Positions 17,492 through 60,079 of a DNA stretch of 64,000 nucleotides are shown here, piece after piece. The position numbers and the translations under genes are program-made. Source of the stretch: Datisca glomerata (taxonomy: Eukaryota; Streptophyta; Magnoliopsida; Cucurbitales; Datiscaceae). Position 1 is the first letter of the stretch. Every line of letters begins with the position of its first letter. The notes under the pieces are model-generated. The model saw nothing but the letters and a program-made list of their open reading frames with translations, was not told where the DNA came from and did no database searches. The DNA lies in NCBI GenBank assembly GCA_003255025.1, contig QANY01012071.1, positions 434,001-498,000 of the forward strand. The letters run 5' to 3'.

Positions 17492-17647
17492 CCTCCCACC
17501 AAAACAAGATTGGGCATTAGCCCGTGTGTCTGTGATAGGTCCGAGACATGTCACCGACGCCACATAAAGGGAAAAGGTCTCGATGAGGAGTAAGTAAAGC
17601 CCTAATTAGGAGCTAGAATGACTCACTAGCGGAGTTTTATAGTAGAA

Positions 17648-27151: not shown

Positions 27152-27845
27152 TTGACTGATAATGCTTAGGTGAGTAAGGGGGGGATTACACATGAGCCAA
27201 TCGGGTGACGCCATGTGGGTCTTTGTGTAATTATCATGATCTAGGGAGAACATGCCTAGCCGGTGAGGCGCGACGACAGTGTTCACCCAACGCCTCCTCT
27301 ACAAGGGTTCTCTCAAACAAAACCTCTCCCCAAGGTGGGAGGGTAGCGCACCCTCAATGTCTAGAGTGGTCGTACCGAGGAGGCATGTCCCCCGCCTAGT
27401 ACAACGTAACCTCGCCCCTAATCCTGCCAGCCTATAGCCTCTCGAACGTTCCCAGGCAATCATGCGTCCACTCAAGTATTTGTCACTTGACTTGGCGGTT
27501 TGTGATGTGATGACTCATTTTGATAATGTAGTGGTGCGTCTACGAGTTGCATTACAGAGAGTGATCAATGCACCTCCATGATACACCCATGAGGGTGACA
27601 TCAATGGTGCTACCATAAGGGGGGCGACACCCCATGGTGCTGCCATTGGGACGACCTCCATGGGTACCTTAGTGGCGACACCTCAAGGGGTGCATCTCAA
27701 TGGCGGCACCCCATGGGGTGCACCTCGGCGGTGACACCCCATGGTACGTCCTTGGTGGAAACACTCCCGATACGCTATAAGAGTTGCACTTTACAAGTAG
27801 TCAACGTTGAAATCGTCAACCCTAATATACAATCGTGATCTAGCA
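27152..27845. repeat. GC-rich unassigned repeat with CACCCCATGG palindromes
   Basis: Base composition jumps well above the background. From about 27590 to 27760 a degenerate ~30-bp motif (GGCGACACCCCATGGTGC-like) recurs five or six times. A perfect 16-bp palindrome, GCACCCCATGGGGTGC, lies at 27706-27721. No coding domain was found. It is probably LTR or satellite debris from an element not otherwise present. Confidence 0.55.
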
Positions 27846-31900: not shown

Positions 31901-33878
31901 TATCTTTCCCGGACGATGTTCTCCAATTTCTGCTAGAGAAATTACACGCGAAGAACTTCAGATGGTAAGAAGTTGCTACAATTGTTTTTCTTAAGAGGCG
32001 GATGTGGTACAATTTGCATTCCAATTTTACAAGTAGTATAGTGGGGGAATGTGTGTGTAAGGAGATAAGCATGCCGGTGAGTAATTATTTTTGGCCATGA
32101 ATGACAATAGCCTGAGTTGAGCTGGTTAAATGTAGGACATTTTCTCTGCTACCATGATTATTAGGATAGGACGATAAGGATAAGGATAGGACATTTTCTA
32201 TGCTACCATTTCTTGGGTTTTTTTTTTATATACATATCACTTATTGCTAAGGAACAAAATATACGTATCACTTGCAAAAGAAAGGATAGGACTATAAGAA
32301 TCCTCAGTTGGTTTTTGCAGAAAATATATTGTTTTATTAGCATGATTAAACATATCAAATTCTGTCTCATTATTTACTCTATTTAAGTGAAGGTTCATTC
32401 CTTGGAGCACGTTCAAGCTATTGAGCTTACAAGCCATATATTTTGTAGGTAAGCTAGTTGGCTGTCCTCTATTGTGTATGCTTAGTGGTGTGGCTGGCCT
32501 AGTTTTTGTGCATTGTCATGCCACCATTTGTAAATACTGTATGTGCATGTGCTTTTCAACACCCCCCCCCCCCNNNNNCCCCCCCCCCCCCCCGACACGC
32601 GCACACTAAGAAAAAGAGTATGAAGAAAAGAGTTTTGAAGAACTTTGTTTTACATTGGAGGAAACTATTAGGAAGTGGAATGTGTGGCAACAATAGTGAA
32701 AATTTGGATCACCTCTTTATTCATTGTTCTTTTGCGAGGGAGTTTTGGCACCGGTTAATGTTGAAGATGCACATAAGTTGGGTTTTTCATAGACGCATGG
32801 ATGATCTTTTTTGTCAAGTATTTCTTTTGAAATGGCCCATGAAGATCAAAGTTTCGTGGTACATGGGGGTTGTCGCAGTGTTATGGGGGTTATGGTCAGA
32901 ACGGAATAGGAGAATTTTCGAATATAGTTCCATGGATATTGATTCTTTGTGGATAAGATCCATTTTTGGGTTTCTTTGTGGGTGTCCACCTCAGTTTGGG
33001 GACATTCTTTTGTTTTTTATTGATATCGATTGGTTGACTGTTTGTATAGATTAATTTAGGTTTTTGGTGTTCGGCTAGGATGGCTTATCCTCCAAACAGT
33101 CTTTTGTACATCTCTTTTATTAAATATAAGTTTGTGTCCTATAAAAAAACTATTAGAAAGTGGGGAACAAAAGCGAGAAAGTAAATTAAACTATATGTAC
33201 TAATTTTTTGATTTATTTTTATATTTCATACTCAATTAAAGTTGCATAACAAATAAGTCTATAAAGTCCAGAGGAAGAAAACAAAACTTCAAAACTTGAT
33301 GTTTTCCATGTCTCCCCAACAATTATTCAACTATTATGTAACTATTCCCCTCTCCCAAATAAAACGATTTTAAGATATCTACGTGGGGCACCTCAAGCCT
33401 GATTAAGTTGGCTGTTAATTGAATATGGATTACTTTGCCTTTTTTCCTGATTGGCAGTTATTTCACTCCTGACACATATGCCAATGAGCATTCTGCACGG
33501 GCTGCTAGGCTTGCAGCTGGTTTATGTGCTGATCTTGCTGCAGAGATAATTTCTGGACGTGTTAAAAATGGTTTTGCATTGGTATGCTTTCTCAATATCT
33601 AGTTTTAATAGCCTCTGGTTAACTTCTAAGCTTTTAAGTTCTCTATCTCCTCAAAGTTTTTCTTTTTTTTTTTTTCTGAAAAAAATTAATCTCCTGTGAC
33701 TTAGGTTCGTCCTCCTGGACATCATGCTGGTGTAAGACAAGCCATGGGTTTTTGCCTCCACAACAATGCAGCAGTTGCTGCGATGGCAGCTCAAGTTGCA
33801 GGTGCTAAGAAGGTGCTAATTGTTGATTGGGTAAGATCGATACTCCTTTTAATATTGGCCGCCTGCGTGTGACTGTAC

Positions 33879-38838: not shown

Positions 38839-40975
38839 TCCTGACTGAGTTTGGATTCACCATTTTCATGGTGATCTATCTATCTGAATTCATCTTGTTA
38901 TATGCATGCTTTTGTTGTCACGTTAACTTGCAGCTAGGGGTATTGCAGCTTTTGATACCATTTTTCTCTGCTTTCCCCACCACTAACTTCTGTGTATCTA
39001 TTTTGTCTCCTTTTGTGTTATGTGCAATATAAGCAAACAGCTTTCACAAGTTTGAATTTTGATCCCTGACCTTTCCCTTTTATGTTCACTTTTGCGTTTG
39101 GTGTGTTTGGGATAAAGAGGAGCTTTCCTATTCTTCGAGAAAAGGAAAGCTGTGCACGACCGTATGAAGAAACTGTACTCTGTCTGTAGTGTCCTCTGTC
39201 CTGAAACATACATCGTGTTATTTACTCAATGTGAAACATGGGTTTTTCTGTCATGTCGTGGTTGGTGCATCAATTATTGTGTAGACACTATCGATGTGTG
39301 TCCGTGAATCATGTTTCTACCTTTTCTTGTAAAAAAGATTTACTGTTTTATAATACATTTGCGTGAACGTTGCAGTAACTGTAAAAAAAGTTTATATATT
39401 ATAAATAATACCCTTGTAGCTTTCCTGTTGCAAGTGAGACACATGTGCGTGGAACGTCAAATTTGGGTTATAAAAGTAACGGAAGGGTGTTATTTGCAAA
39501 ATCTCCGAGTACGAGGAGAAAAAGAAGTGTAGGGGTTTATTTTGTAAATAGTAAAAAACATAGGGGTATATTTATTATTTATAGTTTTGGAAGCCTATTT
39601 TATAAAAGTTCACTTTTTTCTTTAAAAACTTGTTTGGAACTAGTTGAAAAAACTAAAACATAAAACTGCACTTTTTTCCCCTCTTTTTTCTTGCATTTTT
39701 TTTTCTCAGGAACTGTACTAAAATTTTTTCCCCTAAAATTGTACCATTCAAGAAATACGGCTAAAAGATCATTTAAAAACTTGAAACTGTGATTTTTCTC
39801 AACATATTCACTTCTCTCACGTTGATGGTGGAGGGTGGGGAAAAATCAGGAAAAATGGCATCCAAAACTCATGTCAGTTAATTTTGAAAAAATTAGGGAG
39901 GCGTTGTCACCGAACGGAATTTGTCCATACCTAGAGTTCGATTACACGACGAACCGAGGAGCTCGAGGATATGCTGCAGATGGTGACTTCCATGGTCTGC
40001 AGAACTACTTAAATGACTAGTGAAGGATTTCTTCACTGATGGAGGAGCTCTTCACAGGGATGGGTTAAAATCTTACCTGAATGAGGTGAGAGATGAAAAA
40101 AAATGGAAAATGGAAGATAAAGAGGGAGGGGAGGCGTTGTCGCGTTGACGGGTGTTGAAGGGGAGAGAGTGGTGTAAATTAAAACTTGGCAAATTCTGTC
40201 AGTTTTTAATTAAAATTAAAACTTAGCAAATTGGCTTATGTGATGTGTTAATTAAAATTAGGTGAATTTTGGTATGTTTTTTGTTATATGTAAATTATAA
40301 TTGAGTGAATTGGAATAGTTTGTTGTGGAAGGGTTATTTGTAAATAGGTATTCTTTTCATTTTGGTTAAGAATAGTTATACCCATTTATCAAAATCTAGA
40401 ATTTTACACTCCTGGCCCATCACAATCAACATAAAAAAATTCAACTCTCTTTTTCATCATCATTTCTTTTCTTTTTCTCCATGTAAAGATCAAATCAATA
40501 TTCACTCCCTCACTCTTCTTCTTTCCCTCATTGTTTCCTCCATGATTTCTAATTCGTTTCCTTCGTATTTTCCTATTCAGCGAAGCAACGGAGGTTTGTT
40601 TCCTCCATGCTTTCCTGTTCTGCGAAGTTCTTCCTCTCAATCGCACTGTTTTGACTATGACATAGTCGTTTAAGCTTCAATGGTGGTAATGGTCGAATGG
40701 GTACTTAACCAACTCAGATTTATTGGATCCGATCAAAATGACAAAATTGATACTTGATGGCACAAAGTGTCAGTGGCTGAGAAAACTTAAGGCTTGAGAA
40801 ACTTTTTTTTCATTTGGATTTTGTGAATTCTTTTACACTTCTTCGGATTATAAGTTTGTTGATTATATATGTTTGTTGATTGAAATTTAAATAATTATAA
40901 ACCAATAAGGGGTTCAAGATTGATTACTGTGTGGATGGTATCAATTTCTGTATCTAGATTGTTATCTAACATGAG
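38839..40975. other. HDA15 3' UTR and AT-rich intergenic region
   Basis: The 3' UTR probably extends a few hundred bases past the TGA at 38836-38838. No canonical AATAAA was found close by. From 39300 onward the DNA is AT-rich. The only open frames (39311-39663, 39835-40020, 40362-40673) lack family resemblance, so I do not call a gene. Confidence 0.5.
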
Positions 40976-40984
40976 TTAAAAATG

Positions 40985-43318
40985 ATTACTTGAAAGATTC
41001 AAGTAGTGTTTTTGGCTACTTGAAAGGTTCAAGTAGTATTTTTTGCTACTTGAACCTTCAAGTAGTCACATGCTCTCTGTATAAATTATTGCATGAAACA
41101 AAATGACTACTTGAAATGTTCAAGTAATATTTTTTTTACTACTTAAACCCTTCAAATAGTCACATATTCTCCGTACAAATCATTGCATAAAATAAAATGA
41201 CTACTAAAAAGGTTCAATTAGTCATAAAACACTATTTGAACCCTTCAAGTAGTTAAATGCCTATATATAAAATCGATGACAACATATAATTTGACTACTT
41301 GAAGGGTTCAAGTAGTGTTTTTTGACTACTTGAACTATTCAAGTAGTCACACGCGAAAAGCGGAAAAACCATCAAAAAACGACGATTGTTCGTGAAGGTT
41401 TCCACAGAAAGACCCCTTAGTTCTGGCAAACGGATCACAATTACAGGTACCTGGGAGCATACCGATGGAATGAATAGAAAAGGTGGGCTTGGGCACAAGC
41501 TAAACTTCTTCGATTAGGCTACCACCTGGTTTAGCTGAGGATGGGATTTGCTACCTAATTAGGCACCTTTGGTCTAGGCTTTGACCCCAAAGTTGACTTT
41601 GGATTCATAGACTGAACTTGACAGGTTCCACTGCGGAAAACCCCTCGCTACACAAGTCGCCTCACCGCATTTGTTCAGTCGGGTCGCCAAAGCAGCGGTG
41701 ATGAAGGCTGACAAGCACGATTGACCGGAACTGGAGTCTCACGAGGGATTTAGCAGTTCCATGGCGTAGTTGGAAGTAACCAATTAGGTTTACGACGAAA
41801 CCTAGAAATCGATCACTGATCCCATTTGAGTACCTCTACAGGTAGAACGTTGATCAATATTCAGGAAGAGATCGAGGATCACAGCAGGATCCTGATCTTT
41901 GTCAACACAAGACTCGGAGCCCCCTGCTCAAACAAAAAATCCTTCGGAATTATAAATTCCTTTCGGATTTCTTATAGTGGAGGGGAGAAGACTCATTTTT
42001 AATTCTATATGGGGGGAGCTATTGTGAAGCCTAGAGAGGTGGAAGCGGCAAATCGCTTCTACCGAGTTCCCCAACAGCAGCTTAGCTTAGTACCTTAACT
42101 TTTTCTACTGGCGTGACGCTGCTGCTCTGTATAAATCACTACATGAAACAAAATGACTACTTGAAGGGTTCAAGTAATCTTTTTTTACTACTTGTACCCT
42201 TCAAGTAGTCATTTTTTGTCTCCTGTAGTGATTTATCCAGAGAGGATGTGGCTGCTTGAAGTGTTCAAGTAGTAAAAAAATCGCTACTTGAAGGGTTCAA
42301 GTAGTTGTATCTGACTACTTGAACCCTTCAAGTAGTGATTTTGATTCTACAAGTCAAACAAAATTGCTTGAAGGGTTCAAATAGTTGTACCTGACTACTT
42401 GAACCCTTCAAGTAGTGATTTTGATTCTACAAGTCAAACAAAATTACTTGAAGGGTTCAAGTAGTTGTACTTGACTACTTGAACCCTTCAAGTAGTGATT
42501 TTGATTCTGAAAGTAAAAAAAATATTACTTCAAGGGTTCAAGTAGTTGTATCTGACTACTTGAATCCTTCAAGTAATGGTTTTGATTCTGGAAGTTAAAA
42601 AAATATTACCTGAAGGGTTCAAGTAGTTGTATCTGACTATTTAAGCCTTCAAATAATAATTTTGATTCTGAAAGTAAAAAAGATAATTAATTGAAAGGTT
42701 CAAGTAGTTGTATTTTACTACTTAAAACCTTCAAGTAGTGATTTTGATTCTGAAAGTAAAAAAAATATTACTTAAAGGGTTTAAATGGTTGTATCTGGCT
42801 ACTTGGACCCCTCAAGTAGTGATTTTGATTCTGAAAGTAAAAATAAGATATTACTTGAAGGGTTCAAGTAGTTGTATGTGACTACTTGAACCCTTCCAGT
42901 AGTGTTTTTTTATTCTGAAAGTAAAAATAACATTACTTAAAAGGTTCAAATAGTTGTATCTGATTACTTGAACCCTTCAAATAGTCAGAGATGCAATCAC
43001 TTGAACCCTTCAAATAGTTAGATTCAACCACTTGAACCCTTCAAATAGTCATGTGCAACCACTTAACCCTTCAAGTAATAATTTTTTTTAACTTCTAGAA
43101 TCAAAATTACTTCTTGAAGGGTTCAAGTAGTCAGATACAACTACTTAAACCCTTTAAATAATATTTTTTTACTTTCATAATCAAAATCACTTCTTAAAGG
43201 GTTCAAGTAGTCAGATGCAACTACTTGAGCCCTTCAAGTAATATTTTTTTCTACTTCCAGAATTAAAACCAGTACTTGAAGGGTTCAAGTAGTCATAAGA
43301 GGTTACTTAAACGCTTCA
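40985..43318. repeat. Tandem palindromic repeat array (ACTACTTGAA / TTCAAGTAGT)
   Basis: The core is two 10-base arms, ACTACTTGAA and TTCAAGTAGT, that are exact reverse complements and flank a 3-base centre, CCC or GGG. Cores occur singly at 40985-41350. From 42125 they occur in pairs (one GGG, one CCC, about 8 bases apart, such as TTGTATCTG). Paired cores are also reverse complements of each other, so each pair can form one ~20-bp stem. Between 42337 and 42903 the spacer GATTTTGATTCTGAAAGTAA recurs every 80-82 bp (eight times). A 780-bp organelle-like insert (41352-42124) splits the array. Copies have drifted at a few sites each. The right end meets the LTR-like element at 43319. Confidence 0.92.
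41352..42124 (-). pseudogene. mttB: Mitochondrial DNA insertion (NUMT) containing an mttB (tatC) fragment
   Basis: GC content rises sharply relative to flanking repeats. On the minus strand, 41470-41352 encodes a stretch closely resembling plant mitochondrial mttB (membrane-targeting TatC-like protein): SQVPVIVI, RGLSVETF and NRRFLMVFPLFA are recognisable. At 41351 the frame passes straight into the palindromic repeat (TGTGACTACTTG), which marks the junction. On the right, CTCTGTATAAATCACTAC (42125) resumes the repeat exactly as in the neighbouring copy at 41070. The remaining ~650 bp has similar composition, but I cannot assign it to a named mitochondrial gene. Only ~40 of the roughly 260 codons of mttB are present, so it is non-functional. 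Confidence 0.75.
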
Positions 43319-44346
43319 TGTAACGCCTCGATTTTCGAGAGTTGAACATGTTTGTAATTTAACAATTAAAAAATTCACAATTCAAGAAAATCCCCAAATT
43401 GAAAACCTTAATTTTACTCTAATTTTAACTTTAAATAGCGGAAGCATAAAATTATTTTAAGAGAATATTAATTCATAAATTTGAATTAAATGATTCATTA
43501 AGCTGTAATAATGTCGGACACAAAAATCCATAAAACATGAAAATTCATAAAATTCCTGAATTAAACTGAAAAACTGTTTCTAACATCATATAATCATAAA
43601 TTGTGAAAAATCTCATATTTTCGCTATCTATGGTAGTCCCCCACTCTTGCTGCTCGTCATCACCTGTATGAGGGGTGAGTATTAAAAATACTTAGTAAGT
43701 AAACTTACATACTAATAAATTTCACATGGCATAAATGTAAATATATAACTCATGCAAATTTAATTTAACACATTCACTTGATTATTAAATAACATAAAGT
43801 ACTTGTAATTAATCAACATAATTGATTAGTGGTTAACATATAACTAGAACTTGTACTTATTCTTGCTAATACTTGTACTTGATTGATCATAATTCAACTA
43901 GGCATATCCCTCTTTTCACACTTGAACGTGAACTTGTAACGTGGACGTGAACATGACGGATTGGGTGTCCTGAAACTTGATGACACTTTTGGTATGTGGT
44001 GATATGAGGCAATATGCCTGGAAAATGAGGGCAAGTATGAGATTGCTTTGTTTGGTTCAAAATTTTTGGGTGCTTCATTATCCTAGAATGTAAAGATACC
44101 CTCCCTCATTCCAGCTACTCACTCGCTTGCCATTTTCTACAAATTCCCCAATCTACTCCCTCACTCACATACGAATCGAACTTCACTCCTCTCCTTCAGA
44201 CCCATTAAAATGGTAAACTCTTCCTCTGATCTCTCTTTTTGTCTCTCTTTCTCTCAACCACACAAAATGGAGCCCTATGTAGTGTTAGAACCCAAAATAT
44301 TTTGTTTCTGAATTGTGTGGCTTCGATTGTGCGTCTCTCTCTATCA

Positions 44347-44930
44347 GCTTATTTGTTGCATAAATCCACCCGTAATCAAATCACGACGCGAACTAAAGAC
44401 CAAGAACTGTAGCAATTGAATACCTAGAATTAAATGACGGCGATCATCGATGACCAGCGAACTAGCTAATGAAGAGTTCGTACCACGACGATGAACTACT
44501 GAACTAGCGAACCCCGACGAATGAACCATGAGCCACGGCGCGGCCAACGAACGAACTAGTGAGTGGCGAAGAGTTTGAGAAGTCGAGGCTGTGATCCAAG
44601 TTCTCTGAAAGTTACGAAGAAACATTGCTCCTTTTCTTATTTGTTGCATAAATCCACCCATAATCTAACCACGACGCGAACTAAAGACCAAGAACTGTAG
44701 CAATTGAAAACCTAGAATTAAATGACGGCGATCATCGATGACCAGCGAACCAGCTAATGAAGAGTTCGTACCATGACGATGAACTATTGAACTAGCGAAC
44801 CCCGACGAAAGAACCATGAGCCACGGCACGGCCAGCGAGCGAACTAGTGAGTGGCGAAGAGTTTGAGAAGTCGAGGTTGTGCATCCAAGTTCTCTGAAAG
44901 TTACGAAGAAACATTGCTCCTTTTCCTTTG
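44347..44930. repeat. ~290-bp tandem duplication within the LTR-like element
   Basis: CTTATTTGTTGCATAAATCC at 44347 recurs at about 44636. The two copies are nearly identical through GAAGAAACATTGCTCCTTTT (ending at about 44640 and 44930), with only a few substitutions and small indels. The minus-strand 105-codon frame here is a by-product of the duplication. Confidence 0.9.
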
Positions 44931-45601
44931 GTGGGTCTCATTGGCAGTGGTAGGGTTTGAGGAGATGAGGAATGAGGAAATCATGGGTTTGCTGCGTGTG
45001 GATTGAATGATTGAAGGGATTTGAGGTAATGGGTTTTGATTTGTTTCTAAAATCGATTGGATGAATTGCTTTTGGGTCTTCTCAATTTGATTTGTTCTTC
45101 CATTCCTGAAGTTTCTGTATTAACAGACATGCATTTTAAATAAGAAAATAATGCAGAAAGTATTTAAGTTAGTGGTGGGGGAGAAAAGAAAAGATTTATA
45201 GTTTAGTTTATGTGTTAAACTTTAAAGATTAGAATGAAGGAGAAAAGGAGCGTGATTATGGATGGAAAGACTAAAAGGGTTGGTATTTTGTTCTTGTGGG
45301 CTTGTAAGGTGGGGGGATCTTCTTTGTCCTCTTGTTGGGATTGTGGGTCACAGAGCTAGAAAGTCTTACACTCTCTAGAATCTAACTTTATTTGATTTTT
45401 CATCTTTTCTTTTTAAGCTAAACTGATACCTACACGACGTATCATAATATAATGGTTTGATTGAAAAATTATTAAGTATATATGAAAAAAATTTGTTTAA
45501 CCCTAAAAAAATAATCTTAACTTTACAGTCATATACATTCTCACAATCATATTCTAGCAATCTTATTCCGGAAATATTTACTCACAATCTTATACCACGA
45601 T

Positions 45602-46508
45602 GAAGGAAAAAAGAGATTGCAAGTGGTGATGTGAAGTTGATGGAATAGGTGTATAAAATTTTTTATTTTAAAAAAACGGTGTCAAAATCGTTAAGTAAAA
45701 TGAAAAAAATATATTTATTGAAGAAACTCTATAGTAATTTGTAAACAAAAAGGGATAAGATTTGGTGTTAGCATCACCAACCGAGTTCGAGAAAGTTGAA
45801 ATTAGATGTGTATTTGTTTAGATTAAATGATTGATTTGTTTTGGTAAAGTGAATGTGATAAAAAATTTAAAGTCATATTTTGAAGTTAAAATTAAACTTA
45901 TTGATGTGACATCTAAAATAATTATTTTATTTTAAATATCACAAAACAAATTTTTTTAATAATTATTTAAATAAATTTTCTTCAACACGTCTTTTGATAA
46001 AAAAATTTAAAAATTATTTGTAAAAAATTATTTTATAAAAGGACTCGATACAAACATTTTTATTATTATTTTATTCTTAGTTCACTTAATTTAAACTATT
46101 TAATTCTAATCGGATGGTATAGATGACGAGAATCCAAATCCCTGAGCAGATGGTATGTGACTATGTTATCACCCTCTGCAAAGTTAGAAAACCAACTCAC
46201 TAATTTCATTGTGACTCCAGAAAAGTTATGTAACAAAGTTTTAGGGTGTATATATTACTGGATTAGACGTGAGTATTCAAGTCTTGTGTAGATGATGTTC
46301 ATTTAATATGTATACTTTTATTTGAGAAATTTCTTAGATCATTTTTGTCTGATAAAAGGAGCTCTTCAAAATTGGGCCACTTTTCAATGTAGGAGCAATT
46401 TTTGCAACATGATGCCGAGATTTTTGTTGAATCACTTCAATATATTTGTTTAACCCTAAAAAAATTATGTAACTCATAACACATTAGTTTAACCTCTGAA
46501 CACATTTA
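45602..46508. repeat. Left copy of a ~900-bp dispersed duplication
   Basis: ATGAAGG-AAAAAGAGATTGCAAG through CCTCTGAACACATTTA matches 50035-50908 almost throughout, with small indels. Shared blocks include TAGATTAAATGATTGATTTG, GTATGTGACTATGTTATCACC and GGGTGTATATATTACTG. The first ~110 bp also match part of each 615-bp satellite unit. It forms the distal part of the LTR-like element. Confidence 0.85.
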
Positions 46509-46551
46509 TTGACAAATTTACCCCTTATAATCTTTGGGGTATTACACTTCA

Positions 46552-49500
46552 AGTACTTAACGTTCATTTTTTCTTATTATTTTTTACATAGGAAAAAGGT
46601 TAAGTAGTCATAAAAAGCTACTTGAAAGTTTTAAGTATGAATAAAAAACTAATTGACACCTTCAAATAGTACTAATATTTGGGTTGTTAAATGATCAAAC
46701 AAAAAATAACTATTTAAAGGGTTCAAGTAATTATAAACAACTACTTGAACCCTTCAAGTGGTCATCTGGTGTATGGGTAATTGATTGAAAAAAATAACTA
46801 TTTGAAGGATTCAAGTAGTCATAAGCAACTACTTAAACCCTACAAGTAGTTACCTAGTGTATAAATGTTGATTGACAAAAAAAATATTACTTGAAGAGTT
46901 CGAGTAATCATAAAAAATTATTTGAACCCTTCAAGTAGAAGAAAAAAATTCGTTGAAAAATAAAAAATAATAAGAAGAAAAATATATTCTTAAATTGATT
47001 TGACATGTGCATGTGCATTGAGAAATAAAAAGAAATGATGAGGGAAGAAAGAGATTGCAAGTGGTGATATGAAGTTGTTGTAATAGGGGTATAAAATTTC
47101 TTATTTTGAAAGGTATAAGAATCCTTAAGTAAAATGAAAAAAATATACTTCAAGTACTTAACGTTCATTTTTTCTTATTATTTTTTACGTAAAAAAGGTT
47201 CAAGTAATCATAAAAAGCTACATGAAAGGTTTAAGTAGTCATAAAAATTAATTGACACTTTCAAATAGTCACCAGTGTTTGGGTTGTTACCCGATCAAAC
47301 AAAAAATAACTACTTAAAGGGTTCAAGTAGTCATAAACAACTACTTGAACCCTTCAAGTGGTCACCTGTTGTATGAGTAATTGATTGAAAAAAATAATTA
47401 TTTGAAGGGTTCAAGTAGTCATAAATAACTATTTGAAGGGTTCAAGTAGTCACCTGATTATAAATGTTGATTGACAAAAAAAATTATTTGAAGAGTTCAA
47501 GTAGTCATAAAAAACTATTTGAACCCTTCCACTAGAAGAAAAAACTTCGTTGAAAAATAAAGAATAATAATAAGAAGAAAAATATATTATTAAATTGATC
47601 TGACATTTGCAATTGTGCATTGAGAAAAAAAAGAAATGATGAAGGAAAAAAAGATTTTAAGTGATGATGTGAAGTTGGTAGAATAGGGATATCAAATTTA
47701 TTATTTTGAAAAAATGGTATAAAAATCCTTAAGTAAAATGAAAAAAAATATACTTCAATTACACTTCAAGTACTTAACGTTCATTTTTTCGTATTTTTTT
47801 TTACGTAGAAAAAGGTTTAAGTAGTCATAAAAAGTTACTTGAAAAGTTTAAATAGTCATAAAAAATTAATTGACACCTTCAAATAGTCACTAGTGTTTGA
47901 GTTGTTGACTGATCAAAACAAAACTAACTAGTTAAATGGTTCAAGTAGTCATAAACAACTACTTGAACCCTTCAAGTGGTCACCTAGTGTGTGGGTAATT
48001 GAATGAAAAAAATAACTATTTGAAATGTTCAAGTAGTCATAACAACTACTTCAACCCTTCAAGTAGTCACATGGTTATAAATGTTGATTAACAAAAAAAT
48101 TACTTGAATAGCTCAAGTAGTAATAAAAAACTATTTGAACCATTCGAGTTACGAAAAAACTTCGTTGAAAAATAAATAATATTAAGAAGAAGAAAAATAT
48201 ATTATTAAATTGATTTGACATGTGTAATTGTGCATTGAGAAAAAAAAAGAAATGATGAAGAAAAAATAGATTGTAAGTGATGATATGAAGTTGGTGGAAT
48301 AGGGATATAAAATTTATTATTTTTAAAAAATGGTATAAAAATCCTTAAGTAAAATGAAAAAAATATACTTCAATTACACTTCAAGTACTTAACGTTCTAT
48401 TTTTCTTATTATTTTTTACGTAGAAGAATGTTTAAGTAAACATAAAAAGCTGCTTGAATAGTTTAAATAGTCATAAAAAACTAATTGACACCTTCAAAAA
48501 GTCCTAATATTTGAGTGTTGACTGATCAAACAAAAAGCAACTACTTAAAGGGTGCAAGTAGTCATAAATAATTACTTGAACCCTTTAAGTGGTCACTTGA
48601 TGTATGAGTAATTGACTGAAAAAATAACTATTTGAAGGGTTCAAGTAGTCATAAACTACTTGAACCCTTTAAGTAGTCGTAAACAATTACTTGAACCTTT
48701 CAAGTAATCACCTAGTTATAAATGTTGATTGACAAAAAAAATTACTTGAAGAGTTCAAGTAGTCATAAAAAACTATTTGAACCCTTCAATTAGAAGAAAA
48801 AACTTCGTTGAAAAATAAAGAATAATAATAAGAGAAAAATATATTATTAAATTAATTTGACATGTGCAATTGTGCATTGAGAAAGAAAAAGAAATGATGA
48901 TGGGAAAAAAAGATTGTAAGTGATGATGTGAAATTGGTGGAATAGAGATATAAAATTTATTATTTTTAAAAAAGGTATAAAAATCCTTAAGTAAAAGGAA
49001 AAAAATATATTTCAAGTACTTAACGTTCATTTTTTCTTATTATTTTTTACGTAGAAAAAGATTTAAATAGTCATAAAAAGTTACTTGAAAAGTTTATATA
49101 GTCATAAAAAATTTGTTGACACCTTCAAATAGTCACTAATGTTTGAGTTGTTGTCAGATCAAATAAAAAACAACTACGTAAAGGGTTCAAGTAGTCATAA
49201 ACAACTACTTGAACCCTTCAAGTTGTCACCTGGTGTATGGTAATTGACTGAAAGAAATAAATATTTGAAGGGTTCAAGTAGTCATAAACAACTACTTGAA
49301 CCCTTCAAGTAGTCACCTGGTTATAAATGTTGATTGGCAAAAAAAAATTACTTGAAGAGTTCAAGTAGTGATAAAAAACTATTTGAACCCTTCAAGTAGA
49401 AGAAAAAACTTCGTTGAAAAATAAATAATAATAATAATAAGAAAAATATATTATTAATTTGATTTGACATGTGTAATCGTGCATTGAGGAATAAAAGGAA

Positions 49501-50100
49501 ATGATGAGGAAAAAAAGATTGTAAGTGATGATGTGAAGTTGGTGGAATAGAGATATAAAATTTATTATTTTTAAAAAATGGTGTAAGAACCATTAAGTAA
49601 AATGAAAAAAATATACTTCAATTACATTTCAAGTACTTAACGTTTATTTATTTTTATTATTTTTTGCTTAGAAAAAGATTTAAGTAGTCATAAATGCTAC
49701 TTGAATGGTTTAAATAGTCATAAAAAATTAATTGACACCTTCAAATAGTCACTAGTGTTTGAGTTGTTGATTGATCAAACAAAAAATAACTACTTAAAGG
49801 ATTCAAGTAGTCATAAACAACTACTTGAACCCTTCAAGTAGTCACCTGATTATAAATGTTGATTGACAAAAAAAGTTATTTGAAGAATTCAAGTAGTTAT
49901 AAAAAACTATTTGAGTCCTTTGAGTAGAAGAAAAAACTTCGTTGAAAAATAAATAAAAGAATAAGAAAAATATATTATTAAATTGATTTGACATGTGCAA
50001 TTGTGTATTGAGAAATAAAAGAAAATGATGAGGGAAGAAATAGATTGCAAGTGATGATGTGAAGTTGGTGGAATATGGGTATAAAATTTTTTATTTTGAA
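46552..50100. repeat. ~615-bp satellite, six tandem units containing paired palindromic cores
   Basis: Landmark CTTAACGTTCATTTTTTC recurs with CGTT at 46561, 47162, 47778, 48393, 49024 and 49641, giving periods of 601, 616, 615, 631 and 617 bp. Each unit holds three pairs of ACTACTTGAA/TTCAAGTAGT-type cores separated by CATAAACA-like loops. It then has an AT-rich block (TTGATTTGACATGTGCAATT, GATGTGAAGTTGGTGGAATA, CCTTAAGTAAAATGAAAAAA). Units end ACTTCAATTACACTTCAAGT, carrying the LTR-like terminus TTACA plus its CTTCA target. The last unit lacks one core pair. Minus-strand frames at 46908, 48773 and 49348 (MNVKYLKYIFF...) are repeats of one another, not genes. Confidence 0.9.
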
Positions 50101-50908
50101 AAAATGGTATAAAAATCGTTAAGTAAAATGAAAAAAATATATTTATTAAAAAAAACTCTATATGTAATTTGTAAACAAAAGGGATGAATTTAAGTTAGAT
50201 ATTAGATTTGTGTTTGTTTAGATTAAATGAGTGATTTGTTTTGGTAAAGTGATTGTGATAAAAAAAATTAAAGTCATATTTTTAAGTTAAAATTAAACTC
50301 ATTGATGTCTAAAATAATTATTTTATTTTAAAAATCACAAAACAATTTATTTTTAATAATTATTTAAATAAATTTTCTTCAACACGTCTTTTGATAAAAA
50401 AAATTTAAAAATTATTTGTAAAAAATTATTTTATAAAAGGACTCCGAAACATACAAACGTTTTTATTATTTTTTTATTCTTAGTTCACTTAATTTGAGCT
50501 ATTTAATTATAATCTGACGGTATAGATGTCGAGAATCCAAATCCTTAAGCAGATGGTATGTGACTATGTCATCACCCTCTGCAAAGTTAGAAAACCAACT
50601 CACTAATTTCAATGTGACTCCAGAAAAGTTATGTAACAAAGTTTTAGGGTGTATATATTACTGATCAGACATGAGTATTCAAGTCTTGTGTTAATGAGGT
50701 TCATTTAATATGTACATTTTCATCTGAGAAATTTTTTAGATCATTTTTGTCTAATAAAAAGAGTTCTTTAAAATTGTGTCACTCTTCAATGTCGGAGCAC
50801 TTTTTCCGACACGATATTGAGATTTTTGTTGAATCACTTTAATATATTTGATTAACCCTAACAAATTTATGTAACTCATAACACATTAGTTTAACCTCTG
50901 AACACATT
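50035..50908. repeat. Right copy of the ~900-bp duplication
   Basis: It is homologous to 45602-46508. It starts inside the last satellite unit and ends at CACATTTA, 38 bp short of the LTR-like terminus GGGGTATTACA seen on the left. After that, unrelated sequence begins. Confidence 0.85.
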
Positions 50909-51458
50909 TATTTAATTCGTTCAATATATTGTTGAATCCTATGATATAATACCGGAAAAAACAGCCTCCTCATTGAAAATTTTTCTTTCAAAGTATACTT
51001 TGATGAACAAAGCAGAACAAGGCATTTTTTAAATTTTCAGGGTTTGCATTTATAATACATGTACTTCATATTATATGTTATTAAATGAATTTCAGTTGCT
51101 TTATATGTCTGCAATAAGCTGAAGAAGTAATTTCTGACATCCCTAATGTACTGTACTGTGTAGTATTTGGTATGTGACGTGACTGTTTTTAAGATCATAA
51201 CAAAATTGAACCATTAAATCAGTTTTGTAACTATTCAATGACTCTTAAATGTTATAGTACCAGAGTCATAACAGCGTCATAAAATTAGTCATTATTTGAT
51301 ATTAATTGAAAATCTGTCAGTCAACAATTTTACAAAAATCGAAGTCTACATGTTATTGGTTGTTTGTTTATTATCCAAAAGGTTCACTATTTGCTTCTCT
51401 GAATTTCTCATTTAAAAAATAAAAATAAAAAACTGATTAGAGAAAAGAGATGGATTGT
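50909..51458. other. Intergenic, includes MYBS1 3' UTR
   Basis: AT-rich, with no recognised element. The last ~150-250 bp before 51459 should be the 3' UTR of the minus-strand MYB gene. Confidence 0.5.
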
Positions 51459-53244
51459 TTACTGGTGCATTGTAGGAGGAGCCATAGGATAAGCAAGAGG
51501 CATTACATAAGGGGGATGGTGGCCTGGAGGTAGCATAACGGGAGTCCCAACAGCTGATGCCATATGCCCATGAGGAGCAGCAACCGGATGACCCACAGGC
51601 GTCCCGTAAATGCCTAAACCGGCCATATGAGGCTGTGGCCCCGGGCCGAGTTTCCCTGGCGGCCGAATCGTAGGTGGATTTGATGGGCCTGTGGTGGTTT
51701 GAGTTCCGGTAATAGGTGGTTGATAAGAGGAGAGGTCCCCTCCACCATTGTTGTTGACACTGGTAATGTCATGGATACTTGATCTTCTCCTATCTCTGTT
51801 CATTGAGTTTAAACGGATGAAATACTTTTGAGCATGGCTTGCCACTTGTGTTGGTGTTCTTGATACTACAAAGTTCCTTGAGATACTCCTCCAATCTCCC
51901 TTCCCAAACTTGTCTAGACCCAGCAAAAATAGCCTGAAACAATCAAATTATAATTGGTTTCTTCCCTAATTCTTTCTGCAAAGAAATACTTTCTGTTTCG
52001 CTCAAATGCATAAACATCCATGGTAGTTTGTGTATTTATAATAATAATTTTATCTATAAATGAGTCATATAATTTTTTTTTCCACAAATAACCTCACAGC
52101 TTAGCACTTTTTAAAAAACAAAAAGTGATGCTTGTAGGTGGACACTATTATTTGTCACGTTTTCAATTTTATTTACTTCCACACTATAAGTTGTATAAAT
52201 CAATGATTTATTTTCTTATTATAAAAAGTATGCAAATTGGGTATTTTAAGCGAACAATTATATGGATTTAAGTTATTTGTAGAGAAAATGAAGCTAGTGG
52301 TGTCCGTATAAAACTTGAAACTAAATGTGATGTTCATGTAATTAATATAAACAGTGTGTGAGATATACCCTAAATAGCTTTATGAAGTGTATAAAATAAG
52401 TTTTATGGATCTTAGATGTAAAACTACAATGATGACTAACTCATAACAGTGTTGAGTACTAGAGGCCATGTAGCAGATTAGAGAGCAGAGGTGCCGTGAA
52501 ATTTACCCAACTATTACCTTTAATAAAAAAGAAAGAAAAATTATCCAACCATTTATTCATCTTGATTTTTATTGGTTTTGTTTTTGAGTTGGTGACTTTA
52601 ATTTGAAAATATTAAAAAGGTATTTGTTTCATAATTTAATCTGCCAAGAAAATAATGAACCCACTTCCAATTTTAGGATCTAAGTCAATTTTTAGCAAAG
52701 TTTATGAGAATTAAATGACATCGAATTTGTTACTATTTTCTAATTTAAAAATCCATGTGGACTACTTAATTAAAAAGTAAAATATTGTAACCAAGAAGTT
52801 ACTGAAACTACACTCATACCTGTGCTCTTCCTCTGTCCATGGAATCCCTTTTCTCCTCTCTTGTTCAGCTCTAGACCCACCTTTTCCTCCTTGGCCGGCC
52901 GACTCAAGACCCGACCCGGACAAGGACAACCCAGTTCCATATCCACAATTCGATCTCTTATCTGAAGCTGTTGGTCCCTGAGAATTTGAATTACGATGAT
53001 CTTTATTTGAAGACGAAGCTTCCTCTGTAACATAGTTAGGAATTGGTATTTGCCCTGCTTCAATGGCATTCACATCTTCCACTAGACTTTGGTAATGTTC
53101 CTTCAATTCTTCCAATGTTTTGCTTGGAACCATTTCACTGATTTTCTGCCATTGCTCTTCTGATTCATCTTCTACCCAGTGTATGGCTATGGCATTTTCG
53201 AATGCTTTATCTTCTTCTTTGCTCCAAATAGTTTCATTTGACAT
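51459..53244 (-). CDS. MYBS1: MYBS1-type two-repeat MYB transcription factor (SHAQKYF class)
   Basis: Two exons on the minus strand, 53244-52820 and 51933-51459, joined by an 886-bp GT-AG intron (donor GTATGAG, acceptor TTTCAG). An AG|G Arg codon spans the junction. The product is 299 aa. MYB repeat 1 is at about 4-57 ([15 protein letters not shown], then [12 protein letters not shown] and [12 protein letters not shown]). Repeat 2 is at about 133-183 ([32 protein letters not shown]) with SHAQKYF at 174-180 and the following [10 protein letters not shown]. The linker has [12 protein letters not shown]. The C-terminus is Pro/Gly/His-rich ([21 protein letters not shown]) and ends PPTMHQ, which is closer to Arabidopsis MYBS1 (At1g49010) than to SRM1. 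Relatives bind TATCCA elements and act in sugar and ABA responses. The gene looks intact. Confidence 0.93.
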
Positions 53245-55676
53245 TATGATTTTGGTTTCAAAATGGGGTACGGTTTGATTTGATTGTAGAGCATGGAAAT
53301 GGGGGAAATGTTAGTGAATTTGATTTATTTTTCTGGTTCTTTTTTGTTTTTGGTTATGGCCTTATGGGGGTGTTTGGATTGGGAGAAAATAAGAGAGAGA
53401 GGATGCGTAGGATAGGAAGAGGGGACAGGACGGTGGGGGTGTAGGATAAGGAGTGAAGTGGGTGTGTCAAAAAGAAAAAAGAAAAAAGAAAAGAAAAACA
53501 ATCTAATGGAAAATAAGGACCACTTTGGAATTGAAGGGATGGGTTATTTGTCATGTTTCATTCATTTCAATTATTATGCTTATGAAAAATAAAAACTCTC
53601 TTTCTCTTGCTATAAGTATGTGCTTCTATGTTGATTTGAATTTATGGGAGAGGCAAAATCGCAATCATGAGAGTGAAAAATTGGGGAAGAGGAGGCCCAG
53701 AGAATCTTTCAAGAATAACCATTCTCAGTACCAATCTCAAACCTTCCACGCTCTCCCCTACCCACTTTTCACTTGAAATTATCATGACATAGCAGCTTAA
53801 CTGGTAGATGTTAAGTTTGCTTTCCAACCTCGACAGTTTAATCTGCTTTCACTGAAAATTTACTTGATAAAAAAATGTCATTACTTGCAAATGCTAGAAT
53901 TAATTGATTAAAAACTAAACATTTTATTTATTAGATAAAGCTATTTCACGTATTTGCTCATTACGCGCTGTTGAGACGCTCAGATCAGATGCATCAAGAA
54001 TAACAGACTCTCTCTCTCTCAAGACGTGGCTGATTGTTCACTACTAGTTCAGACCCAAGTTGCACCACATTTGTCATTTATATTTTTAGATACTGTATGA
54101 TTCCATTCTACTTAGCCTTTTATACTTTTGAAGAGAGAGAAAATTAGACTTTTGAGGAGAGAGAGAGAGAGAGAGATAGAGAAGTATTCGCCAATGGGGG
54201 CTTTGACTGTCTTGAGCAAAAGTCTTACTATGTGTAACTTTGATGCAACAAGACTATTAACACTATTGCAGGCAAATTGGTTTAACATCATTGTACAATG
54301 CCCGTCTTGATCTAAATTATTCAATTCTGCGCTCTCAGAAGTTTCCCTACACAAATCAAGATAAGTAGCTGATTTAACACTAATTGAACTTAGGACCTAG
54401 AAAGAGAGTAAGTATAAACCTCTAAATCTAAGATCTTCATCCGTTTGATCAACCTCTTGGGCGTAAGTCATTAATGTCTCTTGCCCTCATCTTTTTTGTA
54501 CTATTCTTGTAGGTTGTCATGCATCATAAGCAAGCAAAGATTTTTCCCAGTGTGCTTTATGCGAGAATATGTGAATAGTCAATGAAATAAGCAAGAAATA
54601 CATATGATTGGAGTTTTTCTTTGCGTTCATAACAATCAAGCAGACAAAAAACAATACTTTATGTTTCAACATACAAAGCTAAATGTCAAAAGGTCATGAT
54701 CAAGCAATGACACGAGATCTTCATTGATTTTTTTTTATCGATGAGATTGAGATTGAACAACATCTTGTTCAAGCACAAAGACCGTCGTGTAATTCAGATA
54801 AAAAAGATGACTATGGCAACATTCAAACCGCTCGAAACAATACGAGTACTCATATTTTCGCATAAATACGTCTCGAAAGTCATGTCCTACCTAGAATAGC
54901 AATTATCTTATTCTATAGTAACAAAAGAACCCATTTAAACAAAGTATCATTATCTATCAGTCAAAGGGTCTCTCCATTATGTTGCAATGAGTTGCCAAAG
55001 ACATTTCATAGGAAGAGGCCCCATAACTCTAGATATCCTAAGATTTAACACTAATTCTTTCCAAAATATTAAATAAATAAAGTTCCATCACCTTCAATTG
55101 TCAATTCCAGCATACAAATTTGGCGTTTAATAAATCTTAGGATAAGATTACTTTCTCTGGCTTAATTTACAAGTTGAGCTTCCCTTTCACTTTCATAAGG
55201 AATTGGACCTTGATAATTTTTTTGAACACATAGAATCTACAAACAAACATAAAGAGATTCTAACTTTCTGGTTTAAAACCAGAACACAGATAGATTACAA
55301 TCTCTGGACAGGAAAATAGAGATGCTTATGGTTCATCTGATTCAATAACGTGTTTCTAGAAAAAAATAAGTTCATGACAAAAACAAAAGTAAAAACAAAG
55401 GACACAAAATTGTTTTTAAAAAAAAAATCAATATCCACAAGCGCGTTTTGCCAGTAGTAAATTTAAGAAGCGTTTCACTATATATTTTTTGAAAAGCTTA
55501 ATTAAAAAAAATCAGTTAGTATTAAACTATATATTTACTTAAATTGTTTTTGGGTAATTATTTATTTGAAAAAAAAAACTAAATCCAACCCACAAACAGG
55601 ACACTAAAGACTAAATCTCAAGGTCTACTAATATCAGCCCAAATCTGGAAATAAATTCAGCAAATGCCTTTTGCAA
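53245..55676. other. MYBS1 upstream region and intergenic DNA
   Basis: 53245-53500 holds the MYBS1 leader/promoter (minus sense), rich in CT on the coding strand, with a GGTGGGGGTGTAGG segment. A (GA)n run lies at 54154-54176. The rest shows no coding domain or recognisable element. Confidence 0.5.
54154..54176. repeat. (GA)n microsatellite
   Basis: A short GA dinucleotide run of about 10 units, in noncoding DNA. Confidence 0.85.
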
Positions 55677-56611: not shown

Positions 56612-59600
56612 TCAGGGAAGGTTCGTTAGTTCATGACTCCCTTGAAGAAGGGCTGCCCTTTGTGGGTTGAGAAGGAGAAGCTGCTGCATATCCTTGGGAA
56701 GTACACTAAAAACAGATAATAGATCACCCTTCAGTTTTTGATAAGCTGTCACAGAGTCTGCATTGCCCTTTCCAGATTGCTGAAGCTGAAAATTGCATCT
56801 AAATCATAAATATTTTTCAACTATTTCCTATACTAGAAAATGATAAAATAGTCGTAGCATAGATGCATCAAATAATTAGTTATGGAAATGTGTTCGTGTT
56901 CAAGTGATAATTACAAAATAAAGCATCAATAAATTATGTAGAGTATGCAAATTTAGGAAGGTTATGGCTACCACAAGCATTATCTTCTCTAGGAGAAGGG
57001 AGGTTTGGGTAGTTCATCGGCCGGTTGGAATGAACTTTATCTTATTAATATCATATCATAACCTAATAGGTTTCATGTATAGAACCTAATAATAAAAATA
57101 ATCATAGTAATTGAAGTGTTTTAAGGCATGCTGAAATTTGTGAGTGGTTCAAAATCTAAAACCCTCCCAGTTCATAGAATGTGCTTCCTTTCATATTTAT
57201 GCAGTCTCACCTACACACTTCCAAACTATACAATGACCTCCATGGAGCAAACAAGTGCGCATTGAAAGTCACCTGACACGCTGGCGTGGTGATATATGAG
57301 TTTAACATGATAAGGACCTTTGACACTGATTTTCATAAATGAAGATGAGAAGAATTGTAAATTTGTAAATTCCACTCAATCTTGAGCATGAGAGACATGG
57401 GGAAATTTACACACTTCCCAGATCACAAAAATAATCAACTCATTATTAATAACTGTAAAATTTATGCTCAATGCTAAAATTCAGATTTTTGAAACTCAAA
57501 CTAATTAATTTATCTAAATATCGATACTTTATAGCCAAATTTTTTTAAGCATTTGAGGTACCTCATTGTTCAACACGCACGTTTGAAATACCTACATTAC
57601 CATACCGACTCGGTACCGCAAAATTTCCCATAGTTAATATAGCTGATCTGTTTTATGTTTAGTTAACCGCTCTTGCTGAGACGTCATTTAGTTGTCTCAT
57701 GTGTTCGCTGATTGTATTTAAAGAACAGATTGCTCTCTTTGAGTGTTAATGAGAAATCATTCTTCATTCAATTCTTGTCTCAGAACTTTCTCTTTCACTG
57801 TTTTCTTTACAAGATCTGAAAGTTATCAGCATCATCAATCATTGGGTACTTCCGTACAATTACTTCCTAATCATTTTATAGCGATCACTTCTATCATAAG
57901 AAAATATCACTACTAATCGCAATCACCTTTATGATCATTGTCATTATCTTCAGAATCACATCAAAGCAATGTCATTTTTTCTCTCAGAAAAATTTCAGCA
58001 AATGTCATACATGTTATTTTCTTTTAACGTGATATAATAAATCGTTTCAAATTTCAATTTGACATTTGTGGATAAAACAAGATTTATTTGGAAACGAACA
58101 GGAATGAGGGGAGAAATTAAACGAGCGGGAATGATAGCTTCAAAAAGTTACCTGTATTTCACCAAGAAGATGTCTTTCAATACCATTGAAGGAATCAACA
58201 GTTTCCAGTTCAGACATTTTAGATATGAACTGTTTTATGTCAGTATTAATTCTTGCCTGCCTCCAGAGTCTATGTTGTTCTTGTTCAGCAACGGCCCGTC
58301 TTCTCTGGAACCATGGCACAAAGTTGGGTCCATTAAGAAACCGCCTGAAAAGTAAAGTAAAACTTCTTGATTCTTGATCTGAACACTACCATAAGTAGAG
58401 AACAACTTCACAGCATGTAATCAAAAAAGAAAAATGTAAAAGGCACTACATAAAAGTGGAACTGCTAATTACCTATAAAGATCCAGCCAATTAGATCTCA
58501 TCCGTTTTGATAAAAACTTCCCTGGGCCTCTGGCTGATAAATTTGCTAGAAATTCATCAGCAACAAATGGAGGGAGAGGAGGAGGATCATCATATGGAGA
58601 AGATCCTTCCGAAGGTATCGTAGTCCTAAAATATGGGCCAAAGGGGGCAAGGAAATTAGTCGTGAGTTCCAAGAAATGTCTACGCAATATTTCATTGTTA
58701 ACAACTGACATTGACTCCTCAACCCTTGGTAACATTCCTGCATCAATAAGCCTATTCAAGATAGACGTGTCTGGCTTGGTTGTTGCAGCATAAGTGCTCC
58801 AAATGGCTTCTTTATGTTCTGTCATGAGGCAAAGAGGACCATCTCTCCTCAACTTCACAGCATTTAACAAATTTGTAGGAGAGAACTTTTTCAAAGTGAG
58901 CTGTTGAAGACCGAATCCTTCTGGTCTACCAAAAGTTCTTCCTGTAGAAGACCTCGAATTGTTGGCAGATCGATTGGAATTGGCAGCAGGGATTCCAACA
59001 GAAACAATGTGGGGGATATTACGAAGAGCTTTTAGGAAGAAGAGGTTTGTTACACCCAAAACCATTGGAGGAAAATCGTCTCCTTCTTGAAGGGTATTCA
59101 ACCGAGCAAACTCTGGGTCATGGATAGTGAAATAAGGCCTGAAATCAACACTACAAAGTAGTGGTGCAACCAAACTTACAAGACCAGCAACAGCCTCACT
59201 ACACTGAGGAGGTGTAGGAGCAATAATGAGAATAGGCTCACCGATTAGTAACAACTCCCACAACACCCAAAGCTGCAGTACTAGACCCCTGAATGTACCA
59301 AAAAGATCTGCATCATGGAAAAGACCCTGAGGTATTGATTGATTAGTGGGAAGTAAAGGAGCCATAGCAGATGCAGACTCTTCAATTGCACTTTCCACGG
59401 GTAAGCTACAAGGAGGTGGTAAATTCACTTCAAGTGAAGCATTCCCAATAGGAAGCTCCATTGGCTTACCGGGTATAGGGGCAGGCCACATTGAAACATA
59501 AGTAGCAATGTGCTCCAAAGCTTTCTTTCCAATATCAAAATACAAAGGACCCATTATTTGTAGTAAAGGTCTAAATACACTGGAGTAAGGACCGTGGGAC

Positions 59601-60079
59601 AAAATTACCACAGACTTCTGCTCTCCACCTCTCCTGAGTCTCTCGTCATGTCTCTGTCGATTAAACACATAACCATATAGGAACTTGGAAACATTATATT
59701 TCTCACTACTTTTTGATCCGTTTAAAACTTTTGAGCCGATGGGCTTTGGAGTAAACTCCTCATCCTCTTTAATATTCTCAACAGAAAACACATTGCCTGG
59801 TTGAGAATTTTCCGGTCTCCGAATACGAAAAAAGAAGATGCAGTCGTGGATGCTAGAGCGGTTCTGATGCTGAGAAACAGAATCAGGGAATGAACTAAAT
59901 GCAATTTCAAGTTCCTCATCATGGGTAAGGCAGTCCGGGGGAAAACACTCTTCAATTACCTGACCCTGTTCTAGATCAAACCTAATAATACAAAAGGCCA
60001 CAACCCATTTCCCCAGAGATTCAGGAACGAGCTTGGGACTAAGTTCCGACTTCAATGAAAACGAAGGTGACCTACTCAT
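56612..60079 (-). CDS. DENN domain protein, DENND6/AVL9-like
   Basis: Three exons on the minus strand: 60079-58473, 58344-58152 and 56785-56612. Introns are 128 and 1,366 bp, both GT-AG, with consistent phases (AG|G across the first). The product is 657 aa. The N-terminal longin/uDENN start is at about 24-46 (KWVVAFCIIRFDLEQG), with AFSSFPDS and CIFFFRIR after it. A core DENN region lies at about 155-360 (VVILSHGPYSSVFRPLL, LWELLLIGEPILIIAPTPPQ, VDFRPYFTIHDPEF, LGVTNLFFLKAL). The tail is helical (WFQRRRAVAEQEQHRLWRQA) and ends in a Leu/Gln-rich segment. DENND6 proteins in animals are exchange factors for Rab GTPases such as Rab14. A Rab-GEF role in membrane traffic here is inferred from the family. 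The start codon is the first in a duplicated 5' segment. Confidence 0.92.

Follow-up and report, generated by a model that had tools for sequence, protein, structure and literature searches.

Mutator-like elements (MULEs) are defined by long terminal inverted repeats (TIRs) together with target-site duplications of 8-11 bp, and VANDAL elements are Mutator-like as well. In Galileo, the repeats of the TIRs carry sites for the THAP DNA-binding domain of the transposase, as gel shifts demonstrated (PMC3688188). The anti-silencing protein VANC binds repeated motifs in VANDAL elements (PMC5735166), whose Mutator-like status is implied in PMC10398659, and the accessory protein TNPA binds repeated end sites in Spm, as told in PMC2613891, where the soybean element Tgmt* is described as having 24 subterminal repeats that form 12 stem-loops in 732 bp. 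Here we analyzed a 64,000-nucleotide stretch of the Datisca glomerata genome (assembly GCA_003255025.1, contig QANY01012071.1, positions 434,001 to 498,000), hereafter the window, in which a 23-bp palindromic core is repeated in arrays. The arrays belong to an element family that we classify, with high confidence, as a high-copy, non-autonomous, foldback-type Mutator-like DNA transposon. Its nested palindrome interior is unusual. To the reading as a whole, in which this interior array of a MULE would offer multivalent protein-binding sites, we assign a probability of about 0.55.

Comparison with described systems showed partial likenesses. Muta1, an active MULE of Aedes aegypti (type 2 foldback), shares 8-9-bp duplications, long TIRs, tandem subterminal repeats and many non-autonomous derivatives with varied insides (PMC5225508). 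Its own repeats, however, are 12 bp long, with nine copies in a 145-bp TIR plus one terminal 10-bp imperfect palindrome (PMC5225508), whereas the Datisca family has 23-bp self-complementary, mostly alternating cores in arrays that span 35-86% of copy length in six copies with two recognized ends, and no linked transposase. MuTAnT of Medicago and FARE of Arabidopsis (as cited there) are plant MULEs with modular foldback ends and 9-bp duplications, and MuTAnT also has GGGG/CCCC termini; MuTAnT differs in targeting TA microsatellites, and the available text describes a nested 23-bp palindrome array for neither (PMC4486113). VANDAL elements likewise hold a dense short motif, spread by tandem repeats in noncoding parts, but their motifs are 8-9 bp, those of VANC21 lie in one orientation, and their TIRs are degenerate (PMC5735166, PMC10398659), while the Datisca motifs are palindromic and alternating and the TIRs are long. 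Galileo resembles the family in that repeats within long foldback-like TIRs hold protein sites, but it belongs to the Drosophila P superfamily and has three sites in the end studied (PMC3688188). Tgmt* has comparable rows of stem-loops of a repeated motif, thought to be bound by a TNPA-like protein, but with CACTA ends, a 3-bp duplication and a motif that, as described, is not self-complementary (PMC2613891). Finally, the SIRC cassettes of Arabidopsis keep short repeats while the intervening sequence differs and are linked to mobile elements, but they consist of 2-8 direct repeats of 10-29 bp, ~57% of them lack palindromes, and no order rule is described in the available text (PMC10342631).

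Four 17-base motif strings gave no match in the literature searched, which left subscription papers and repeat databases outside its scope, so that the family may be described there; the 10-base arm occurs in 129 papers, and among the 20 listed no title concerns a plant repeat. The preliminary description of this DNA had allowed that the motif might prove to be a known transposon terminus. In kind it did, the ends being Mutator-like, while the family itself was not found in the literature searched. Exact-match scans with the core found nothing in viral contigs or prokaryote genomes, a protein search with the tails of the tandem units found no match, and neither Rfam (at its gathering threshold) nor ARAGORN reported anything in the window.

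The core is 23 bp long, and its arms are self-complementary around a 3-base centre, GGG or CCC. A search of the whole window for ACTACTTGAA-NNN-TTCAAGTAGT with at most three mismatches gave 68 matches, compared with 0 in 100 shuffles; they lie in two arrays, at 40985-43293 and 46648-49897. At a cut-off of at least 15 of 20 arm bases, applied to 40900-50000 only, 82 cores were counted, and a laxer scan of the whole window (14/20, variable centre) gave 114 places, those outside the arrays being scattered and weak. Within 40900-50000, neighbouring cores 28-33 bp apart were G-centred then C-centred in 36 of 42 cases, and the wider neighbour pairs (34-70 bp) were C-centred then G-centred in 28 of 29. 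In 35 of the window's close core pairs the spacing is exactly 31 bp from start to start. Folding of five core-pair stretches of 54-81 nt as single hairpins gave predicted energies of -30 to -39 kcal/mol (z -8 to -11). For 42271-43323 the predicted energy was -514 kcal/mol, a value with no shuffled comparison, and 730 nt of this stretch folded with a z of -22.7 against 20 shuffles. The self-complementary cores with CCC or GGG centres, their alternation, and the joining of neighbouring cores into one longer hairpin, all put forward in the preliminary description, were thus borne out by these counts and folds. Its view of one tandem array at 40985-43318 held for the repeats but not for the single array, as a foreign insert lies at 41348-42122 and a further array at 46541-50144 had been overlooked. 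Likewise, of three proposed levels of dyad symmetry, the core and the core pair stood, while the ~80-bp unit did not: in the one unit folded, its 27-nt spacer remained unpaired. A third level exists in another form, since the first array is inverted on itself, with 42275-42446 complementary to 43079-43250 at 85%.

Throughout the genome (678 Mb in 1,358 contigs), we found 8,034 perfect cores and no match to a reversed-pattern control. Exact half-core pairs occurred in the order GGG-8 bp-CCC at 1,131 places and in the order CCC-8 bp-GGG at 42. When inexact cores were allowed, close pairs were G-C in 98 of 123 cases and wider pairs C-G in 81 of 106 at 13 loci; the corresponding counts at 20 further loci (397 cores) were 140/176 and 142/170, with the 31-bp spacing in 133 of the 176 close pairs and a peak of inter-pair spacings at 60-63 bp. 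Because both orders pair equally well as hairpins, pairing alone cannot explain this bias, which could come from descent from an ordered founder or from the preference of a protein.

To characterize the family, we sampled thirteen 9.5-kb regions around the first listed cores, on contigs C1, C4, C7 and C8. With the core arrays masked, the flanks of many fetched regions matched each other and the window flanks. Two-ended copies were recognized in L016, L017, L019, L021, L022 and L028; these are 1.6-3.3 kb long with 14-56 cores (14/20 cut-off), and their local TIR alignments cover 147-335 columns at 67-85% identity. In L016, for example, the inverted pair at 3631-3886 and 6595-6342 is 84% identical. 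A seventh two-ended copy, L049, was fetched later and is ~3.9 kb long with 45 cores. The string GGGTTATTTG, which begins the end that we call type A, is exact at 7 of the 12 ends of the first six copies, and the remaining ends are variants. In 20 of the loci from the terminus search described below, taken with 1.5 kb on each side and with the window copy included, cores lay inward of the type A terminus in 18 of the 19 other loci, the first core being 218-775 bp in, and the 12 bases outside the terminus varied between loci. The shared terminus, the inward cores and the locus-specific outer bases are marks of the end of a mobile element.

Target-site duplications support this assignment. Three of the 7 two-ended copies, L021, L022 and L028, lie between exact direct repeats of 9-11 bp, and a 9-bp duplication with one mismatch flanks L016. 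Among 4,000 random boundary pairs at the same loci, 4 gave exact 9-mers and 27 gave 9-mers with no more than one mismatch; the true chance level is above this null, because, following a wider search, shifts of 4-7 bp had already brought the ends of L021, L022 and L028 onto the duplication when the count was made. GGGTTATTTG gives an independent placement for both ends of L016, the right end of L022 and the left end of L028. The copies thus show the MULE features, long TIRs (147-335 columns) and, in some copies, duplications in the 8-11-bp range, as well as that of the foldback type, namely modules repeated in or beside long TIRs and able to fold back. Of the roles suggested earlier for the array, the subterminal array of a foldback element was upheld by these results, in that the array lies inside TIR-bounded elements, some with exact duplications. 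Helitrons lack TIRs, make no duplication and have TC...CTRR ends; this class was rejected, as TIRs and duplications are present. A VANDAL-type, non-TIR MULE with degenerate or no TIRs was rejected on the ends, which here are long TIRs.

The preliminary description had also held that the arms are the best conserved part while the spacers drift. Within each window array this was not so. Mean pairwise differences in array 2 were 0.090 for arms, 0.114 for spacers and 0.094 outside (p 0.15, 0.29), and those in array 1 were 0.131 for arms and 0.160 for spacers (p 0.23). Between subarrays the claim held for the long spacers: the majority strings of the arms differ by 3-15% (17-25% for the degenerate first pair of array 2), while no clear relation links the long spacers of subarray 1b to those of 1a or array 2. 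It also held between genomic copies with a recognized partner core. For this comparison we used exact GGGTTCAAGTAGT anchors (n=208, in 31 of 33 loci), and a partner core was recognized (at least 12/20 at 8-bp distance) for 134 of the 208; where it was, arms differed by 13.7% and 8-bp spacers by 59.9% between loci. Equal divergence of arms and spacers, named at the outset as a sign against the idea, was therefore seen inside the window arrays and not between copies. Compensatory arm changes were not in excess: the window had 4 (mean after shuffling 8.9), and 13 other loci, with 273 cores, had 16 (mean after shuffling 15.2). Because arms and spacers decay alike locally and arm changes are not compensatory, the palindromes are not being regenerated, and the replication mechanism once suggested for this was not upheld.

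As for function, a protein-binding array is the best reading of these putative sites, for which we infer both the binding protein and its role. Repeated sites in comparable ends have precedents in Galileo, VANDAL and Muta1. The odds are about even that the cores are dimeric binding sites for an element-encoded protein. Each 23-bp core would present a two-fold symmetric site for the grip of a dimeric protein; a GGG-centred core followed, after 8 bp, by a CCC-centred one would give a 54-bp strand-symmetric pair; and rows of such pairs would place many weak sites in a small space. A protein from an autonomous relative, which might be a transposase, an accessory DNA-binding factor or an anti-silencing factor, could then find the element and load onto it. 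Arms would have been retained and spacers left free to vary while copies moved, and after insertion the window copy would have undergone neutral decay, growth by tandem duplication, breakage, and patching with partly mitochondrial DNA. A more specific version, offered tentatively and on balance doubtful, is that the body of this Mutator-like family might be a multivalent docking platform whose factor recruits transposase or strips silencing marks; the family might then, just as tentatively, parallel the VANC-VANDAL system, but with palindromic sites and TIRs. Short-motif arrays of transposons are a place where host silencing and proteins of the element meet. Since this family offers perfect palindromic sites by the thousand, in a strongly preferred order, a single 23-bp probe could fish for the binding protein, and the comparison of conserved arms with free spacers offers a direct test of selection on noncoding transposon DNA. 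The window locus, moreover, illustrates growth, breakage and uptake of mitochondrial DNA by an element in place.

Several results weigh against this reading. A TIR pair was found in only 6 of the first 13 regions; L025 and L027 each showed a single TIR-like end, and no pair was recognized in L018, L020, L023, L024 or L026. Among the two-ended copies, the duplication of L017 measures only 8 bp and contains a mismatch. For L049 no target duplication lies within 8 bp of the ends, and L019 lacks one within 2 bp, although a singly mismatched 9-mer occurs 8 bp away. At the TIR-like ends of the window copy no target duplication was found, and its exact 9-mer repeat sits within the TIR sequence itself; because there is no convincing target duplication, the outer limits of the window copy as a single 9.8-kb element are not proven. 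One locus of the terminus sample, L031, has a type A terminus and no cores within the 1.5 kb examined, and 1-3 stray cores lie outward of the terminus in 5 of the 20 loci. (L031 could represent a copy without cores, or a longer and even autonomous one.) The exactness of the 31-bp pitch adds nothing: the modal pitch was seen in 76% of cases versus 74% expected from indels on 8 bp, and helical phasing is not claimed because this exactness matches the expectation for spacer length. When the recognition threshold was removed, arms differed by 48% and spacers by 63%. The longest stop-to-stop frames in six copies were 61-117 aa, and no transposase or other protein was found linked to the family. Genome-wide, MULE domains gave 3264 first-look candidates, of which 150 were scored, none being shown to share these TIRs, and one was examined more closely; that match, near a TIR on contig C561, proved to be a FAR1-type gene outside the element rather than a linked transposase. 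The strongest objection is this missing protein, together with the possibility that tandem growth produced the array passively. At 3-1844 of L049, a FAR1-type gene with FAR1, MULE and SWIM domains lies close beside the two-ended core-bearing element.

An array without a function of its own would have arisen from a core pair amplified by slippage or unequal exchange and spread with the element, arm conservation then reflecting recent common sources. The like decay of arms and spacers in the window arrays, the evident 610-bp and 80-bp tandem duplication, the TIR locus without cores in its examined part and the small advantage of arms without a threshold all fit such a history. It should, however, lose arms and spacers alike, which is not what copies with a recognized partner core show (13.7% versus 59.9%), and it does not account for a near-common core consensus across subarrays with unrelated long spacers; we regard it as unlikely, although to be taken seriously. 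We give still less weight to an RNA route, in which transcripts would fold into hairpins with 23-bp stems and be processed to 21-24-nt small RNAs, with silencing of the family or of genes nearby as the outcome. The predicted energies of the core pairs, of 42271-43323 and of its 730-nt part fit this route, as does the share of C-to-T and G-to-A changes among arm changes in the window (95 of 169), which is as methylated cytosines would give, but at the 13 other loci the share was 193 of 446. Moreover, one order is 27 times as common as the other, although the two would pair equally; a pair hairpin needs no palindromy within the single core; and compensatory changes are not in excess. Hairpin small RNA is thus an improbable purpose, but possible as a by-product of the array.

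Protein binding by the interior array of a MULE remains our preferred reading over two further readings that would place the array elsewhere. Subterminal repeats of the kind found in CACTA elements such as soybean Tgm were considered on account of CACTACATGAAAC and CACTACAGGAGAC beside a core pair, CACTAC-like words at 42137 and 42230, and the stem-loop precedent of Tgmt* (PMC2613891). In bounded copies, however, the ends are of GGG type instead of starting with CACTA or CACTG, and the clear duplications are 9-11 bp rather than 3 bp, and the CACTA-like words recur, drifting, inside tandem units; with GGG-type ends and duplications of at least 9 bp this candidate is refuted for the two-ended copies and has next to no probability overall. 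A CACTATAAGAAA match at 41979 falls in the foreign insert and was taken as chance. A satellite, or foldback satellite, that exists independently of any transposon would suit the long tandem organization of array 2 and the stray cores outside the terminus, but the short arrays are dispersed and enclosed by TIRs, whose flanks vary between loci, and the array lies inward of a shared terminus in 18 of 19 other TIR loci. It was refuted for the two-ended copies examined and is otherwise very improbable.

For the window copy, the best reading is either one copy that was damaged and enlarged or a pair of partial copies. Its type A TIR begins with GGGTTATTTG at a terminus at 40331 and covers 40331-40562 (plus strand), matching both inverted ends of L016 at 79-80% and the right end of L022 at 85%. 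A genome search with 40300-40560, in which 40 of 705 first-look candidates were scored, returned 41 rows (the window, 39 others and one short match), and 35 of the 39 non-self full matches started at query positions 29-34, that is, at window 40328-40333. The nine bases left of 40331 are not repeated up to 63990 except in a mismatch-bearing 9-mer at 56879. The subterminal stretch from the TIR to the first core (40563-40984, plus strand) matches other copies at 81-87%: 40778-40984 matches L021 and L022 at 81-82%, 40805-40974 matches L016 at 85%, and 40841-40981 matches L018 at 87%.

Core scans, with no strand assigned, then place array 1a, with pairs spaced ~94 bp, at 40985-41347 and, beyond the insert, its continuation at 42156-42273; array 1b, made of core-pair units of 80-83 bp, at 42283-42985; and array 1c, whose units are inverted relative to 1b, at 42996-43324, the long spacers of 1b and inverted 1c agreeing at 26 of 28 positions. 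Nothing in the fetched copies corresponds to 43325-45598 apart from a 94-bp match to L044 near the right end of this stretch. Within this largely unmatched stretch between the arrays lies a GC-richer, 288-bp tandem duplication (44348-44925, 95% identical).

Array 2 (46541-50144, plus strand) consists of six ~610-bp tandem units, each with core pairs and a copy of a second end, type B. The last copy of this end (49929-50158, minus strand) has a degenerate terminus and matches the ends of L017 and L022 with scores of 222 and 214. One end of L022 resembles window 40331-40984 (end A) and the other 49929-50154 (end B). Aligned with the tails of the right-hand units, the left end scored 70, compared with a maximum of 37 in 300 shuffles and 35 in 399 real windows. 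A truncated type B end (45599-45718) followed by a unique stretch occupies 45599-46510 (plus strand), which is a direct repeat of 50027-50912, 88% identical over 923 columns. Because the repeat starts inside a tandem unit, an LTR reading was rejected, and the pair indicates a segmental duplication that includes one element end and its flank.

The compound foreign insert that splits array 1a (41348-42122, no strand assigned) was delimited by a TatC match and break points; it is 775 bp long and GC-rich. A 72-aa frame at 41298-41513 (minus strand) matches plant TatC/mttB, with 42 residues at 90% to P0123, and marks an mttB/TatC mitochondrial coding piece at ~41349-41474 (minus strand). Further pieces, at 41475-41765 and 41843-42122, match different contigs with shared break points, so that the insert comprises at least three pieces. 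The places matched differ between the pieces 8-127 (up to 100%), 128-418 (up to 98%) and 496-775 (up to 98%; insert coordinates), and besides the window none of the scored matches (40 of 148 first-look candidates) spans the full 775 bp. Since the pieces match different places, as expected from fragment ligation at a break, the insert looks like a break filled by ligating several fragments. On its protein match, the first piece is mitochondrial in origin, and the others are probably so too.

Several neighbouring features were also recorded. Two Myb DNA-binding-domain frames and a DENND6-type gene adjoin the element on the minus strand (51459-53310 and 58469-60103); the top named protein matches of the DENND6 gene are eudicot, the first being Liquidambar at 82% identity. 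On the 5' side of this gene, at 63022-63190, lies a degenerate palindromic array of CATCGTGTAG.CTACACGATG type with a 31-bp period. A second, unrelated palindromic mini-array, GACCTCGGCA...TGCCGAGGTC, with a 36-bp period, occurs at 17393-17492 and 26202-26301, in two direct-repeat copies 8.8 kb apart that are possibly retrotransposon LTRs. Near 32503-33054, a short run of unknown residues lies within a frame that has a zf-RVT match just below the curated cut-off, and a palindromic repeat of CACCCCATGGGGTG type with a 28-bp period lies at 27620-27745.

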